Shown here piece after piece: positions 3,243 through 10,551 of a DNA stretch of 41,787 nt. The DNA comes from an uncultured Alphaproteobacteria bacterium (GTDB taxonomy: Bacteria; Pseudomonadota; Alphaproteobacteria; HIMB59), in contig CACNEB010000009.1 in assembly GCA_902619375.1 (NCBI GenBank), forward strand, positions 1 to 41,787, read 5' to 3'. How positions within the stretch are numbered: position 1 is the stretch's first letter; every line of letters begins with the position of its first letter. The notes below the pieces were generated by a model. It had not been told where the DNA came from. It saw only the letters and a program-made list of their open reading frames with translations, and ran no database searches. The position numbers and the translations under genes were made by a program.

Positions 3243-3866
3243 ATGTCTTTAATTATCTTTTTAAAAATATTTACTGTGTGTATTTTGGGAGCAATATCAC
3301 CTGGGCCAAGTATGGTTGTAGTTATAAATAACGCCATTTTTAAAAACAGATATCATGGAATCTTAACCTCCATTGGACATGGACTTGGTATAGGAATTTA
3401 TGCCCTTTTCGCTGTTCTAGGTATTGCTATCATAATTCAAACAAACATATTTTTTTTTAATACAATAAAAATAATTTCGATAATTTTTCTTATATATTTA
3501 GGATTAAAATCAATAACTAGCAAAAATAAATTAGAATTTGATAAAAAAGAATTAAGGGGCGGTCTAATGTCTTTTTTCCAAGGGCTAAGCATCTCACTGC
3601 TAAATCCTAAAATATTTATATGGTTTGTAGCTATTTATTCTCAATTTATGTCCTTAGAAAATGATTTAATTTTCAATACATACTTAGTATTAACAGCTGG
3701 GTTAGTAGATGCGTCTTGGTATATAATTCTGACATTTTTGGTAACATCTAAAGCCACTTTGGAAGTTGTAAAAAGGAAAAGCATCCTTTTACAAAAAGCT
3801 GTTGGATCGATTTTTATATTAATTGGAATTTTGCTTTTAATACAAATTATAACTGAATATACCTAG
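3243..3866 (+). CDS. LysE/RhtB-family amino-acid exporter
   Basis: Inner-membrane protein of 207 aa with about six hydrophobic segments, the usual length for this family. The family signature GAISPGPSMVVVI lies at residues 16-28, followed by a GHGLGIG segment and, near the middle, SFFQGLSISLLNPKIFIWF, which matches the conserved LNPK(A/V)xLF region. Members export amino acids such as lysine, arginine, homoserine or threonine; the substrate cannot be read from sequence. It starts 5 nt after the HAD gene and closes this rightward operon. Its 3' end overlaps by 4 nt that of the convergent methyltransferase gene, so no separate terminator is possible. Confidence 0.9.
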   Translation: MSLIIFLKIFTVCILGAISPGPSMVVVINNAIFKNRYHGILTSIGHGLGIGIYALFAVLGIAIIIQTNIFFFNTIKIISIIFLIYLGLKSITSKNKLEFDKKELRGGLMSFFQGLSISLLNPKIFIWFVAIYSQFMSLENDLIFNTYLVLTAGLVDASWYIILTFLVTSKATLEVVKRKSILLQKAVGSIFILIGILLLIQIITEYT

Positions 3867-4567
3867 TTAATTATGTCTCGACAAACAACTCTAATCCTTG
3901 GATGTTTTAGATTTATAGTTTCAACTATTCTAATATCAATAAAATGCCTTTTTAAATAATTAATATCTTGATATTCAGTTGCAATGTCAAAAATAAAGAT
4001 AGAATTGTCTTTCGAGGTTTTTTTCATAGTTTCTAAATATTTTGAAACTGGATAATGATAACCCATTGAAACTAATGATATGAATAAATCTATGGAATTA
4101 GGTTGAATAGAAAATTCAGTATCTACATCAATTAGATTAATTTTATGCTCTTCAACGTTATTATTAATTAGAAAATTTTTAGTTATATTATTAATGTTGT
4201 AAGACTCATAATTATCGCTGAAACCGTAAACTATTTTGTTATCGATAATATTTTTATCTAAAAGATAAAATTTTTTACAATCCGAATAATGATTGTTTAG
4301 GAAAATGTCAATGAGACCAATACCACAACCTATATCCATTATGTTATTAACATTCTCTGGAAGGTATTGCTTTATTGAATCAAATTCCTTTTTGATTTTT
4401 ATAAAGACTTTTTGAGCTAAATTTTTGTCTTGAAAAAAATTAATAAGAAACTTTGTGAACAATGTTCTCCCAAAAAATTTTCTAATAGCTATTTGATTTG
4501 AAGATAAAAATTCATTTCTTTGGAGTAAAAGTAGTTTTTTTTCAAGGTTATTATTAAAATTTATCAC
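3863..4567 (-). CDS. Class I SAM-dependent methyltransferase, substrate unknown
   Basis: Protein of 234 aa with a central Rossmann-type motif I, DIGCGIGLIDIFL (Asp78-Gly84), followed by KFYLLDKN (acidic end of strand 2), then SIDLFISLVSMGYHYP (motif IV region) and NSIFIFDIATEYQD. The N-terminal ~70 residues are helical and give no family clue. This fits class I methyltransferases of small molecules or lipids. It is transcribed alone, leftward, and meets the LysE gene tail to tail. No signal peptide is present, so it should be cytoplasmic. The specific substrate and pathway are unknown. Confidence 0.75.
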   Translation of the reverse strand: MINFNNNLEKKLLLLQRNEFLSSNQIAIRKFFGRTLFTKFLINFFQDKNLAQKVFIKIKKEFDSIKQYLPENVNNIMDIGCGIGLIDIFLNNHYSDCKKFYLLDKNIIDNKIVYGFSDNYESYNINNITKNFLINNNVEEHKINLIDVDTEFSIQPNSIDLFISLVSMGYHYPVSKYLETMKKTSKDNSIFIFDIATEYQDINYLKRHFIDIRIVETINLKHPRIRVVCRDIIN

Positions 4568-4675
4568 GCAAAATTATTTTTTTATAATAGCTTAACAATC
4601 ATAGTTATAGCTATCACAATAGTTATCAATATAAAAGTATAGTAATGAACTGATAGGTAATACAATTAAAGTAGC

Positions 4676-4753
4676 TGGAGCGGGCGAAGGGTTTCGAACC
4701 CTCGACTTCAACCTTGGTAATGATAAAGTCGTTACCACTTCTACTACTTTAAC
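4676..4753 (-). pseudogene. Decayed tRNA-Gly copy (3' half intact)
   Basis: Positions 4676-4717 repeat the 3' part of the intact tRNA-Gly(GCC) at 5640-5681 with one mismatch (4692 T versus 5656 A). The repeat covers the CCA end, the 3' acceptor strand, the whole T arm and the variable loop up to the anticodon stem. The 5' half has decayed. The 5' acceptor strand reads GTTAAAG where GCGGGCG is needed, the anticodon position would read ACC, and the 5' anticodon stem no longer pairs. It is unlikely to fold or be charged. It may be a degenerated duplicate, or one end of an old integration event at the tRNA 3' end. Confidence 0.75.
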
Positions 4754-4782
4754 ATTGAATTTATTAAGGTTTTAGAAAAGTT

Positions 4783-4807
4783 GGTGTTAAACAAATTGTT
4801 TAACACC
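4783..4807. repeat. Perfect 10-bp inverted repeat with 5-nt loop
   Basis: GGTGTTAAAC, loop AAATT, GTTTAACACC. It lies ~125 nt beyond the stop of the secreted-protein gene (leftward) and upstream of the decayed tRNA copy. It could act as a transcription end for that gene, although on the leftward strand it is followed by only a weak T-rich run. The right arm can alternatively pair with GGTGTTAA at 4833-4840, giving two mutually exclusive hairpins. The rest of the 4568-4933 gap holds no open gene. Confidence 0.6.
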
Positions 4808-4895
4808 TAAATTGATACTTTCATAGTGAAGTGGTGTTAATAATTTACAATGATATCTATAAATTTTGATTTAATTTTATATAAATTCTAAAGTT

Positions 4896-4922
4896 ATTAT
4901 AATGAGACTTATATTAATTTTT
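4896..4922 (+). repeat. Left arm of a 27-bp inverted repeat: inverted copy of the neighbouring gene's start
   Basis: Reads as the reverse complement of 5516-5542 with one mismatch. It contains, on the + strand, an ATG at 4902 followed by codons for MRLILIFH and a stop. These are almost the first residues (MRLLLIF) of the leftward gene 4934-5536, together with the same upstream ATTATA sequence. It is therefore a truncated, inverted copy of that gene's translation start, 11 nt beyond the gene's stop codon. Confidence 0.8.
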
Positions 4923-4933
4923 CATTAAATTTT

Positions 4934-5536
4934 TTAGTACGCTAAATTATTCAGCCAAAAATCATATTCTGCAGTTTGAATAACAACCCTTAGGTTATCT
5001 TGATAGTTATATGATTTTTCAAATTCCTTTGACCAATCTGTACAACCTATAGCAATATGATCCATGCCTTTGCCTTGATCTTCTTCAAAATCAAAATAGA
5101 CAGTTTTTACATTACTTTTGCCTGAGGGGTCTGCAGGATTAGGATATGTCCCGTAATCTTTTTTATCTGTAAATTTCAATAAATCTGATATCTCTTTAAT
5201 TATAGTATCCATTCTTTTATGACACTTTGAAATATTTGTGTAAAAATTTCCTCCAGCAACCGAATGAATTATAAATTTTGGGTCATTATCTTTTAGACCA
5301 AACTGAAGAATTTCATATTCTTTAAAATCTTTGTCAGTTATTTCAACAGTATAAAATGTTTTATCTTTTCGAAGCTCTAAAAAGAAATTATCTATATTCT
5401 TTTTAATAGTATTTTCCGAATAATAATCTAATAGACTATCTCCAACTGTAATTTTCTCAATTTGATAATCTGAGATGTCATCTGAAAAGACATAAGATGG
5501 TAAAAAAACTATTAAAAAAATTAATAAAAGTCTCAT
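4934..5536 (-). CDS. Small secreted (periplasmic) protein of unknown function between tRNA-Gly repeats
   Basis: Protein of 200 aa with a clear signal peptide (MRLLLIFLIVFLPSYVFS, probable cleavage before DDISD). The mature part begins with YQIEKITVGDSLLDYY, then a mixed alpha/beta region, two cysteines (ISKCHKR and AIGCTDW) that could form a disulfide, and NPADPSGKSN. I recall similar QIExISxGDSLLDYF openings in small secreted proteins of Pelagibacterales but cannot verify this; no function is recognised. It is the only gene between an intact and a decayed tRNA-Gly, and a 27-bp inverted repeat covers its start codon and the sequence just past its stop. That suggests a mobile or duplicated one-gene cassette. 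Confidence 0.75.
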   Translation of the reverse strand: MRLLLIFLIVFLPSYVFSDDISDYQIEKITVGDSLLDYYSENTIKKNIDNFFLELRKDKTFYTVEITDKDFKEYEILQFGLKDNDPKFIIHSVAGGNFYTNISKCHKRMDTIIKEISDLLKFTDKKDYGTYPNPADPSGKSNVKTVYFDFEEDQGKGMDHIAIGCTDWSKEFEKSYNYQDNLRVVIQTAEYDFWLNNLAY

Positions 5537-5542
5537 TATAAT
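5516..5542 (-). repeat. Right arm of the 27-bp inverted repeat (covers the start codon)
   Basis: Partner of 4896-4922 with 26 of 27 positions complementary. It spans the start codon at 5536-5534, the first few signal-peptide codons and 6 nt upstream. Because it lies partly in coding sequence, it is better read as a duplicated gene start than as a classical terminal repeat. Confidence 0.8.
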
Positions 5543-5639
5543 TTACTTTAGATTTTTTTTATAAAATTAAAAACAAAATTTATAAATAATAATAATGTAT
5601 CACAACAGGTTCTCAAAAATTAAATGAACGCAACTTTTT

Positions 5640-5714
5640 TGGAGCGGGCGAAGGGATTCGAACCCTCGACTTCAACCTTGGCAAGGTTGCGCTCTACCCC
5701 TGAGCTACGCCCGC
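5640..5714 (-). tRNA. tRNA-Gly (anticodon GCC)
   Basis: Complete cloverleaf on the minus strand, 75 nt with the encoded CCA. Acceptor GCGGGCG pairs with CGCCCGC, discriminator T, D arm GCTC/GAGC with loop AGGGGTA, anticodon arm CAACC-TTGCCAA-GGTTG (anticodon GCC), variable loop AAGTC, T arm GAGGG-TTCGAAT-CCCTT. It reads glycine codons GGC/GGU. Downstream on the same strand are the secreted-protein gene and a decayed copy of this tRNA's 3' half. It is the only intact tRNA in the window. Confidence 0.97.
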
Positions 5715-6697: not shown

Positions 6698-7356
6698 TGG
6701 ATGAAAATATTAAAAAACTTTTTGAAATAAATTCGACGGATATTCCAGGCTCTATACCAATATTTCCACTGGATAATGTTTTACTTCTTCCTTTTGGAAA
6801 ACTACCACTAAATATTTTTGAAGAAAGATATATCAAAATGACATTAGATAGCCTTAAAAGTCATAAAATGATTGGTATTATTCAACCTAAAAATAACAAT
6901 AACGAGCTTTTTCAAATGGGATGTATAGGTAAAATTACATCCTATATTGAAACACCAGATTACAGGCTTGTATTAAATCTAGAAGGGGTTTGTAGGTTTC
7001 TTTTAAAAGATAGGAACATTACTCCAAGAGGCTATTATCAAGCTTCAATAAATTGTGATGACTTTTTAAATGATCTTCAAGAAGAAGAGCCAAAGATTGA
7101 TAGAAGTAGTTTGATACAAAAATATTCTAATTATTTTAAAATGAAAAAACTTGAAATAGATAAAGATGTATTGTCGGAAACATCCAACCAACAGATTTTA
7201 TCAACCCTTACTATGTTGGCTCCATTTAACAAAATAGACAAACAAGCAATATTAGAGTCCAAAAATATTGATGATAGAATTAATGTAATTAATTCAATAT
7301 TGGATTTAAATACATTTCAAGTTGTGAGCAGTGATAACCCTAATCGATTAAATTAA
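6694..7356 (+). CDS. LON substrate-binding domain protein (no protease domain)
   Basis: Protein of 220 aa matching the N-terminal substrate-binding domain of Lon (PUA-like fold). Visible are IPIFPLDNVLLLPFGKLPLNIFEERY near the start, then MIGIIQPK, GCIGKI and YRLVLNLEGVCRF. There is no AAA+ or Ser-Lys protease part. Such stand-alone LON proteins are common next to cnoX in Alphaproteobacteria and are thought to take part in protein quality control; the exact role is unknown. Two ATG codons in a row (6694 and 6697) leave the start uncertain by one codon. The 3' end overlaps the convergent ubiH-family gene by 17 nt. Confidence 0.88.
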   Translation: MMDENIKKLFEINSTDIPGSIPIFPLDNVLLLPFGKLPLNIFEERYIKMTLDSLKSHKMIGIIQPKNNNNELFQMGCIGKITSYIETPDYRLVLNLEGVCRFLLKDRNITPRGYYQASINCDDFLNDLQEEEPKIDRSSLIQKYSNYFKMKKLEIDKDVLSETSNQQILSTLTMLAPFNKIDKQAILESKNIDDRINVINSILDLNTFQVVSSDNPNRLN

Positions 7357-8467
7357 TTCTACCCATTGCTTGTTTGATAAAAATATTTTTTAGTTTTCTA
7401 GAATTAGATAATGTCTGGTAACCAAATTTTACAATATTTTTTGTTAATGGAGTGAAGTTTTCATAGAGAAAATTTAAAGACGAGGTAAATGAGAGATAGG
7501 CCATGCTCTCTGTAAATCTCCTAGCAAAATAAACCTGATTTATATATTTACTTTCCAAGGAAAATTGGTTGGTTAGCTTACAAAGAGTTTGAATATCTCT
7601 AATGCCAAGATTCCAACCCTGCCCAGCAACAGGGTGTATTGACTTTAGAGCATCTCCTAACAAGATATAATTTGATTTATCTTTATTAATTTTGACAATA
7701 ATTGGATAATCATAAAAATTTTTATCAAAAATTATTTTACCATGTGAATTTATAAAATTTTTTTTTATAAGAGATTTAATATTATTATTTGTAATTTTTT
7801 GCTTTGATGAATATATAAAAGTTGACTTTAAATTATTCTTATAAGGAGATGGTAGGACAGCTAAAGGTCCATTTTTAGTAAATATTTCATATGCGGTATT
7901 ATTATGGACTTTGCTATGGGTAAAAAAACCAACATGTGCTAGTTGATAATTTTTATAAAATTTATCTTGAGTCTCATCTATAGAATTGAATTTTACTTTT
8001 TTACCAACAGATAAAATTATTTTTTTAAAAGAATAAATTTTATTTTTTATATTAATAATATTATTTTTAGGTAGATTATTATAGTCCAAATCAAAATTGT
8101 TTATCAGGATTTTTTTTTCTGAACAAGCTTTTATAGCTTCTGATAAAACTTCTTGATTAAAAACAACATTCCCCATGGATTCTTTATTGTTTTCAAAAAT
8201 TAAAGGATACTTATTTATATAATCTTTAATAATAATTTTATTTATGGGTTGAGGTTTAGATTTAAGCTTTGACCAAATTCCTATTTGATTAAGGAAGTCT
8301 TTTGAATTAGCATTTACAGCCAATGTTCTATTATCTTGAGATATTTTTCTCTGTTTATCAACCGCTAATACTTTGAACTTTTTCTGATGAAGCGCTAATG
8401 CTGCGAGTGATCCGATTAAACCAGCACCAACAATTAAAAAATCGTAATTATATATTTTCTTTTTCAT
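7340..8467 (-). CDS. UbiH/COQ6-family FAD-dependent hydroxylase (ubiquinone biosynthesis)
   Basis: Aromatic-ring hydroxylase of 375 aa, slightly short for the family. The FAD-binding GxGxxG appears at the N-terminus (FLIVGAGLIGSLAALAL, residues 10-24), followed by an acidic residue at the end of strand 2 (AVDKQ). The second FAD motif GDALKSIHPVAGQGWNLG lies at 271-288 and is typical of the UbiH/UbiF/VisC/COQ6 group. Members hydroxylate the ubiquinone ring precursor at C-5, C-1 or C-6, sometimes at more than one position in Alphaproteobacteria; which position applies here cannot be told. The start is 26 nt from the divergent ftsK start, so the two promoters share a very short space. Confidence 0.88.
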   Translation of the reverse strand: MKKKIYNYDFLIVGAGLIGSLAALALHQKKFKVLAVDKQRKISQDNRTLAVNANSKDFLNQIGIWSKLKSKPQPINKIIIKDYINKYPLIFENNKESMGNVVFNQEVLSEAIKACSEKKILINNFDLDYNNLPKNNIINIKNKIYSFKKIILSVGKKVKFNSIDETQDKFYKNYQLAHVGFFTHSKVHNNTAYEIFTKNGPLAVLPSPYKNNLKSTFIYSSKQKITNNNIKSLIKKNFINSHGKIIFDKNFYDYPIIVKINKDKSNYILLGDALKSIHPVAGQGWNLGIRDIQTLCKLTNQFSLESKYINQVYFARRFTESMAYLSFTSSLNFLYENFTPLTKNIVKFGYQTLSNSRKLKNIFIKQAMGRINLID

Positions 8468-8493: not shown

Positions 8494-10551
8494 ATGAACA
8501 ATAACTATATTCCTCATATCTTTAAAGAAAAAATGTCATCTTACCTAAGATATGTTATTGCTTTTTTATATTTAACATTAAGTTTTATAACAATATTATC
8601 TTTAATATCATTCGATATAAATGATAACTCTTTTTTAACAAAAACAGATTTATCCTCTCACAACTTACTTGGAGATTTTGGCTCATATTACGCGAGTTTT
8701 GTATATTATACTTTTGGTATATTTGGTTATCTTTTTGTCATTTTTTTTCTAATTTTTTCTGTTTTAACCGCAATTGACAAACGTCCAAAATATATATTTA
8801 TAAGGTTAATTATTTTTTTTATTAGCTTAATTACTTTACCTCAAATTCTTATCTTTTATTTAGAAGAAATAAATTTGATTTCTGGAATTAATAATTGGGG
8901 GATTTATTCTCATAATGTTTTTGAAGTTACTGAGTCTAAAATTGTTAGCTTTATTTTATCATCAATTGGCCTATTATTATTTTTTGCTTCACAAAATATC
9001 TTTTCTTTAATCAAAATACCAAAAGTAAGACTTGACAATCTTTTTAAAAAGAATGATTTTCCAAAAAGCTCTTTTCATAAAAAAGAACCAGTCATCAATA
9101 ACTCATTATCAAATAAAAATAATTTAGATATTAATGACTCAAATGAGTTTCAAAATAATGAAAAAGATCAAGAATATTTTTCACCATCACTTGACATTCT
9201 AGAGTCAAATAATAGGTCATCAAAAGAAAAAGTTGATAACAATATTGAATCAAACTCTGAGTTATTAGAAAATGTTTTTTCTGATTTTAATATAGATATT
9301 AAAGTCATAAATGTAAAACTTGGTCCGGTAGTTACTTTATATGAAATACTTCCAGCAGCAGGGATTAAGATTAATACCATAATTAATTTGGCTGATGATA
9401 TATCTAGAAGTATGGGTGTTGGCGCAGTGAGAATAGCTCAAATATATGGAACACAATTTTTGGGAGTCGAGGTACCGAACAACCATCGCGAAACTGTAAC
9501 TATTAAAGAGCTGTTGAGTGATGATAATTTTAAAAATACATCATTAAAAATACCAATTTGTATTGGTAAGGATATATCTGGTAACATAGAGGTTATAGAT
9601 TTAAGTAAAACGCCACATCTTTTAGTAGCTGGGACAACTGGATCTGGTAAATCTGTGTTTATCAACACACTGTTGGCATCGATACTATATAAATTTCCTC
9701 CTGAAGATTTAAGACTAATATTAATAGACCCCAAAATGTTAGAACTTAGTGTGTATAACGATATTGCGCATCTCTTAACCCCTGTGGTAACAGAGCCCAA
9801 AAAAGCAATTATCACATTAAAATGGGTGTGCAAAGAAATGGAAAGAAGGTACGCCATGATGAACGAAGAAAATAGTAGATCGTTGGAAGGTTATAATCAA
9901 AAAGCATTAGAAAAACTTCCTTTCATTATAGTTTTTATTGATGAAATGGCTGACCTTATGATGACGGCAGGTAAGGAAGTAGAGCATTATGTTCAAAGAT
10001 TGGCACAAATGGCAAGAGCATGTGGTATTCATTTAGTGATGGCAACGCAAAGACCGAGCGTAGATATAATAACGGGAAGTATTAAGGCAAATTTTCCATC
10101 ACGGATAAGTTTTCAAGTTGCAAGTAAGTATGATAGTAGAACTGTCTTAGGAGAAATAGGTGCTGAACAATTACTAGGCAATGGGGATATGTTAATGACA
10201 AAAAACGGAGGCAATTTAATTAGATATCAATCAGCTTTCATATCAGACAGCGAAGTAAATAAATTGATAAACGAAATAAAAAAGGGTCAAAAAGTAGAAT
10301 ATCTAAATGAGCTTGAAGAAATTATTAATAATAATGATGATAATTTTGACTCTTTGAGCGATGAAGACGAAGAATTGATTACAAAGTCAATAGACTTAAT
10401 TAAAAGCACTAATAAAGCTTCGACAAGTTTCCTTCAGAGAAATTTTCAGATTGGGTATAATAAAGCTGCAAGAATTATGGAAGCATTAGAACAGAGGGGG
10501 ATTGTATCATCACCTAATCATGCTGGAAAAAGGGATATACTAATCAATTAA
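8494..10551 (+). CDS. ftsK: DNA translocase FtsK
   Basis: Septal DNA pump of 685 aa that clears chromosome termini and activates dimer resolution. The N-terminal ~175 residues hold four hydrophobic membrane segments. A short Asn/Ser/Lys-rich linker (about 180-255) follows, then the alpha-beta motor domain with Walker A GTTGSGKS at 380-387 and Walker B VFIDEMADL (Asp483-Glu484), MATQRPSVDIITGSIKANFP and QLLGNGDML. The C-terminal winged-helix gamma domain (STSFLQRNFQIGYNKAARIMEALE) would read KOPS. The linker is much shorter than in E. coli, as is usual outside enterics. The 3' end overlaps the convergent next gene by 12 nt. Confidence 0.96.
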   Translation: MNNNYIPHIFKEKMSSYLRYVIAFLYLTLSFITILSLISFDINDNSFLTKTDLSSHNLLGDFGSYYASFVYYTFGIFGYLFVIFFLIFSVLTAIDKRPKYIFIRLIIFFISLITLPQILIFYLEEINLISGINNWGIYSHNVFEVTESKIVSFILSSIGLLLFFASQNIFSLIKIPKVRLDNLFKKNDFPKSSFHKKEPVINNSLSNKNNLDINDSNEFQNNEKDQEYFSPSLDILESNNRSSKEKVDNNIESNSELLENVFSDFNIDIKVINVKLGPVVTLYEILPAAGIKINTIINLADDISRSMGVGAVRIAQIYGTQFLGVEVPNNHRETVTIKELLSDDNFKNTSLKIPICIGKDISGNIEVIDLSKTPHLLVAGTTGSGKSVFINTLLASILYKFPPEDLRLILIDPKMLELSVYNDIAHLLTPVVTEPKKAIITLKWVCKEMERRYAMMNEENSRSLEGYNQKALEKLPFIIVFIDEMADLMMTAGKEVEHYVQRLAQMARACGIHLVMATQRPSVDIITGSIKANFPSRISFQVASKYDSRTVLGEIGAEQLLGNGDMLMTKNGGNLIRYQSAFISDSEVNKLINEIKKGQKVEYLNELEEIINNNDDNFDSLSDEDEELITKSIDLIKSTNKASTSFLQRNFQIGYNKAARIMEALEQRGIVSSPNHAGKRDILIN

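Follow-up and report, generated by a model that had tools for sequence, protein, structure and literature searches.

We propose that the single-gene cassette behind the tRNA-Gly(GCC) gene of the window, by which we mean the whole stretch of 41,787 nucleotides analysed here, is likely the remnant of a small non-autonomous element of the family F1-a, which would have entered the 3′ half of this tRNA gene by site-specific recombination and would then have been reduced by deletion. In this model, recombination would take place across the anticodon loop and the incoming element would bring a new tRNA 3′ half, so that the tRNA stays intact (attL), with the old 3′ half being shifted to the far end of the insert as attR (4676-4720). 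F1-a elements would possess their own termini with arm-type repeats and no integrase gene, and the recombinase must therefore, we infer, act in trans. A later deletion would have taken the left arm together with most of a second, inward-facing gene, leaving one secreted-protein gene, the full tRNA and one orphan attR; with the left arm and the second gene body lost, the unit is probably no longer mobile by itself. Repeated integration at the same tRNA would, in relatives, build tandem arrays. The cassette is most likely a deletion derivative carrying one secreted-protein gene, and presumably immobile at present. Of the origins put forward in the preliminary description, the relatives support that of a tRNA-targeted element of which a scar or a minimal remnant is left.

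Ocean bacteria with streamlined genomes possess small gene sets and show few evident mobile elements. At a single tRNA gene, a likely relative of HIMB59 here trades small cassettes, most of which have no recombinase of their own; they include restriction-modification systems and secreted proteins of unknown function. Tandem arrays give these units exact boundaries, so that gain, loss and shuffling of single genes become countable in metagenomes and single cells, and the same boundaries also allow the helper recombinase to be sought. No tRNA borders are reported for the phosphate islands of HIMB59 (PMC10734472).

The displaced tRNA-Gly fragment

The tRNA-Gly(GCC) gene, with an encoded CCA, occupies 5640-5714 on the minus strand and is the sole tRNA detected in the window by ARAGORN; in our model it is the integration target and now the attL side. 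The 42-bp direct repeat that had been seen to link its 3′ half with 4676-4717 is confirmed, 41 of the 42 bases being identical to 5640-5681 with one mismatch. Ungapped extension lengthens it to 43 identical bases of 45 (4676-4720 against 5640-5684), none of 100 shuffles of the window gave a match like the 42-base repeat, and a third copy of its 25-base core is absent from the window's genome. Where the unit had been given a span to 5714, the repeat holds but that end does not, since 5714 is the 5′ end of the tRNA and not a repeat boundary. Nor does the name of a decayed tRNA-Gly suit the copy at 4676: it has no decayed 5′ half, identity stopping sharply at nt 31, where the anticodon loop begins, with agreement upstream of this point near chance (9 of 24 positions for nt 1-24, 2 of 6 for nt 25-30).

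The copy at 4676-4720 (minus strand, tRNA nt 31-75) is a displaced 3′ fragment starting at the anticodon loop, the classical tyrosine-recombinase signature, with the intact tRNA as attL and the fragment as attR. For tRNA islands, the integration signature is an intact tRNA followed, in direct orientation, by a displaced 3′ end (PMC4383910), and both the direct repeat in the same orientation and the intact tRNA at one end are present here. The putative crossover segment is the anticodon loop itself, TTGCCAA (5678-5684, minus strand, tRNA nt 31-37), because it is exactly at nt 31 that the match begins in displaced copies of the window's class. Sublocation classes of this kind within tRNA genes were defined by Williams 2002, as cited in PMC4383910. 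A hairpin, or attC, reading of 4664-4756 was also considered, since by way of a 9-bp stem this segment folds more stably than its shuffles (z of -4.6); the outer strand of the stem is unconserved in elements with the same terminus, and the hairpin is therefore taken as a coincidence.

Empty and occupied sites in related genomes

We searched 60 related genomes for copies of the tRNA-Gly 3′ end, extracted the loci and listed all copies, and in many of them extra copies lie beside the intact gene. The nearest named relatives are the marine single-cell genomes AG-900-J20 and AG-917-M17, labelled Alphaproteobacteria, and the window's genus includes one closed genome of 1,410,127 bp. Of the 27 loci examined from this genus, 17 hold one tRNA-Gly with no repeat across the 3 to 18 kb examined downstream, and the other ten, G153 included, have one or more repeats; in the sister family 25 of 30 complete loci, G062 and G076 included, carry between one and six distal copies. 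The empty single-tRNA-Gly site that the preliminary description had proposed looking for is thus found in 17 of the 27 genus genomes, and in other relatives different cargo lies between the same repeats. One site can be followed in both states: in G006, G012, G024 and G036 the tRNA-CCA is followed directly by a polysaccharide-lyase gene, and in G004, G007 and G035 the same lyase flank follows the distal repeat, behind 4.5, 1.0 and 6.1 kb of inserted DNA. The two groups represent this site empty and occupied. Among the relatives' loci no exact empty site was found for the outer flank of the window, where a methyltransferase-like gene (3863-4567, minus strand, weak Pfam methyltransferase hits) lies just outside attR and outside the cassette, and this gene gave no tblastn hit there.

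The same loci weigh heavily on the preliminary alternative of a tandem tRNA-Gly duplication in which the 5′ half of one copy decayed. A 3′ half that is 96% identical beside an intact tRNA is formally compatible with it, and the elements of G011 and G035 (L026 4463-10394 and L027 6115-12278) are indeed bounded by two complete tRNA-Gly genes, which would also be expected if an element carries a whole tRNA gene. However, graded decay of the 5′ half is seen in none of 57 displaced copies, which start instead at nt ~25, 31 or ~45, the sequence upstream of the match is a conserved element terminus, and most of the genus has one tRNA-Gly copy. We therefore reject duplication as extremely improbable.

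Onset of the match among these 57 copies falls at nt 31 in the window's genus, at about nt 25 in the sister family, and at about nt 45, in the T-arm, in a further class, and these differences suggest several recombinase specificities acting at one tRNA gene. Beside the displaced copies the ends bear short repeats (GGTGTTAAAC, GGGACA and TTGCAATATAG), whose position and repetition suggest that they are arm-type sites. The T-arm class, as seen in L146, L193 and L116, has its own conserved ends with TTGCAATATAG repeats, and this, with its own start, points to a different recombinase specificity on the same tRNA gene.

These features also bear on whether homologous recombination between tRNA-Gly copies, following uptake of foreign DNA and with no site-specific recombinase, could have moved the cargo. 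Repeats at this tRNA comprise 45-51 identical bases, which might allow rare exchange, and part of the shuffling within arrays may arise in this way. Against such a mechanism stand the sharp boundaries at nt 31 or 25, the conserved arm-type repeats beside att, and the presence of real, complete integrases at the same tRNA in G035, G037, G046, G059 and G041, and we consider it very unlikely as the source of the cassette.

The F1-a family and the window cassette

On the inner side of attR, 4721-4865 (minus strand) is the conserved right terminus of the F1-a family. Matches to this terminus (88-94% identity over 77-145 bp) occur only beside tRNA-Gly fragments, in G007, G020, G004, G018, G010 and G153, and the elements that share it carry different cargo. 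Within it lies an inverted pair, GGTGTTAAACAATTTGTTTAACACC (4783-4807), resembling an arm-type site, and GGTGTTAAACAA occurs exactly twice in the window, both times here. Just behind the tRNA in G004, G007, G010 and G153, where the elements have their left end, the same unit recurs as a direct repeat of GGTGTTAAAC; among 162 genomes of the order searched, this double unit is present only in these four, beside tRNA-Gly, with a shortened form in G018. Complete two-ended F1-a elements are accordingly those of G004/G018, G007, G010 and G153, and none contains a tyrosine integrase by PF00589 (G153 lying outside that search) or by our local model. The 4.4-kb element of G004 and G018 (L023 6688-11238, L024 6606-11144) encodes a DNA methylase, an MvaI/BcnI-type restriction enzyme and a PD-(D/E)XK nuclease, and its two copies are 99.4% identical over 4,551 aligned bases, both att sites included, versus 75% for the host flanks; this integrase-free element has therefore moved between species recently.

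The stretch between the two repeats in the window is 919 bp long with one ORF, and it had been described as holding only a secreted-protein gene and no integrase, which proves accurate. The gene (4934-5536, minus strand) encodes a 200-aa protein with a signal-peptide-like start and no match in a Pfam search, belonging to a family 'DISDFQIEGISIGDSLLDYFS' with two invariant cysteines, C105 and C165, in an alignment of 27 members. Neither the ORF list nor Pfam reveals an integrase in the cassette, and the three tyrosine recombinases (PF00589) of the window's genome are all on other contigs.

A second secreted-protein gene survives as a truncated start, MRLILIFH* (4902-4928, plus strand), pointing inward from the right terminus; its ATG at 4902 opens a frame that breaks off after eight codons, where it runs into the cargo gene's end. 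The corresponding place in G007 and G020 is taken by a lyase gene, also reading inward. The truncated start, with the region preceding it, repeats the matching part of the cargo gene in inverted orientation, at 84% identity over 87 aligned bases, with one arm at 4854-4935 (plus strand) and the other at 5504-5588 (minus strand), the latter running from upstream of the cargo gene into its first codons. We read this inverted repeat as two gene starts, although an inversion of the cargo gene is conceivable.

The window boundary at nt 31, as in other F1-a copies, supports an F1-a origin, and both the comparison of termini and the search of the 162 genomes give the cassette the F1-a right terminus and no left arm. 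Its left end (5537-5639, minus strand) lacks that arm and gave no strong match in the relatives searched. A right terminus without a left arm, together with the truncated gene start, marks the window copy as a probable deletion derivative and not a complete one-gene element; loss of the left arm and of the second gene body would be the simplest history. The left end could instead belong to an unrecognised second class of element and not be a deletion scar.

Could the cassette still be an intact, mobile one-gene unit, excised and reinserted between its 45-bp repeats by a trans-acting recombinase in the manner of integron cassettes? One-gene cassettes that lack an integrase and have near-perfect end repeats do exist at this locus, such as a 528-bp unit that is 96% identical between G045 and G049 against 87% for the upstream host flank, and 52 of 59 intervals between repeats show no integrase signal. 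The window copy nevertheless lacks the family left arm, has two substitutions in attR and contains a truncated gene start, and so continued mobility is unlikely.

As to the recombinase that a deletion derivative of F1-a would once have used, none specific to F1-a was found in the genomes or viral contigs; the window's genome is 79% complete, and an integrase could therefore be missing from it. We also considered a helper phage. Only one viral contig was found to contain the core att sequence, and this contig is GC-rich, prophage-like and of another lineage; viral-contig relatives of the hotspot integrase are just ~25-35% identical over most of their length.

Arrays of cassettes at the locus

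Across relatives the locus is a gene-trading hotspot, holding arrays of one- or few-gene inserts. The 59 intervals between neighbouring repeats, taken over all loci, range from 506 to 13,736 bp with a median of 1,257. Five contain a complete integrase, two an integrase fragment and 52 neither, as counted with a local model of tyrosine recombinases that could miss unrelated ones. The 528-bp cassette is the first in G045 and the second in G049, and the second cassette of G045 is homologous to the first of G049 (72%). This near-identity in swapped order indicates that cassettes behave as separate units. Other cassettes are shared end to end between AG-893-G20 and G056 (98.8%) and between AG-891-E15 and AG-899-L06 (96.9%).

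A second island of similar make-up is found in the window's own genome. On contig C2 (L147 7042-10425) about 3.2 kb lie between a tRNA-Met and a 68-base copy of it with 67 identical bases, and this stretch encodes a tyrosine integrase of 322 aa (7176-8141) and a secreted protein (9652-10227); ARAGORN calls the 68-base copy a tRNA-Lys.

A broader reading, which we offer tentatively and hold to be possible but somewhat doubtful, is that the tRNA-Gly locus of the order constitutes an integron-like gene-capture platform anchored on a tRNA. Such a platform would hold mostly one- or few-gene integrase-free cassettes of several non-autonomous families with their own arm sites, which would be moved in trans by the recombinases of other elements or phages and would preferentially trade small secreted proteins, one protein family moving between platforms at tRNA-Gly, tRNA-Gln, tRNA-Arg and tmRNA.

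Relation to known systems

Tycheposons, mentioned in PMC10872708, are tRNA-anchored cargo elements of marine bacteria, 4-200 kb in size and equipped with a tyrosine recombinase. The window unit resembles them in being a tRNA-anchored cargo element of a marine bacterium, but with 919 bp between its repeats and no recombinase it falls outside them in both size and gene content. As in integrons, single-gene units stand in arrays with shuffled order and most would depend on an integrase in trans; unlike integrons, there is no integron integrase and neither attI nor attC, the sites being tRNA 3′ halves, and the repeat of the window, itself such a half, sets it apart from an integron cassette. A prophage or phage satellite is not matched either, as the cargo gene has no phage match and the att core lies in one unrelated viral contig only.

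In Islander islands, as in the window, the ends are marked by a restored tRNA and, in direct orientation, by a fragment of its displaced 3′ part, yet the definition of these tRNA- and tmRNA-targeted islands requires an integrase (PMC4383910). The window unit has none inside, measures under 1 kb and carries one gene; with PF00589 only on other contigs of the genome it is not an island of this putatively active type. CIMEs are att-bounded and integrase-free and accrete in tandem at one att site (PMC5704250), and at our locus, too, new elements enter the same tRNA and build tandems of integrase-free units. The window cassette contains no integration or transfer genes and retains both 45-bp core copies without the family left arm. 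Unlike CIMEs, the locus has very small units and no conjugative partner seen, with several cargoes of one family sharing termini and consistently no integrase. As for descent from an ICE or IME, the few element proteins that were scanned included no recognisable conjugation protein.

Dehalococcoides ssrA islands are likewise stacked in tandem behind one RNA gene whose 3′ end is repeated at their borders, and 15 of them lack an integration module (PMC3146451). They rely on a serine recombinase family and T-loop insertion at tmRNA, whereas here the target is tRNA-Gly, mainly its anticodon loop, and the integrases are of the tyrosine type. Behind tRNA-Lys in Ca. Methylopumilus, the part of PMC10872708 consulted describes an additive flexible genomic island whose units start at 330 bp and one CDS. 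That island resembles ours in its streamlined aquatic genomes, recurring tRNA 3′-end repeats and mostly unknown proteins, and differs in its tRNA, lineage and 20-bp repeats; arm sites and cassette shuffling are not described in that part. Tandem tRNA and tmRNA islands with integrase-free or cis-mobilizable members have thus been described before (PMC5704250, PMC3146451, PMC10872708), and the window is a clear new example. What is less usual here is that small families without an integrase share termini, and that one cargo family recurs behind several RNA genes.

Distribution of the cargo family

The cargo family is divergent and secreted, and the 27 members found locally keep both invariant cysteines. 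Members share no Pfam family and have no PDB match, and a close subset has no match in viral contigs. Single-sequence structure prediction was unusable (mean pLDDT 40.6), and the leader peptide suggests a secreted or periplasmic role. Of 162 genomes of the order, 14 contain homologs, one of which matches weakly; in a sample of 385 genomes from the class the family is nearly lacking. Full-length members occur at 15 loci, and at ten of these the gene sits directly behind a tRNA or tmRNA gene, namely tRNA-Gly (five), tmRNA (three), tRNA-Arg (one) and tRNA-Gln (one), and G049 has a further truncated copy behind tRNA-Gly. In G040 (L198 8776-10014) the homolog is flanked by tRNA-Gln on one side and, on the other, by a 71-base copy of the 3′ part of that tRNA. 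Members lie directly behind tmRNA in L194, L195 and L196, and tmRNA fragments of 18-50 bases are near in L194 and L196. Secreted proteins in L146, L191, L193, L203 and L026 combine differing mature parts with near-constant leaders (MKILLTLFVLLFSSSVVA, MKTLLALLLLIPSLSWG); the shared 5′ ends of such genes might serve as places of recombination.
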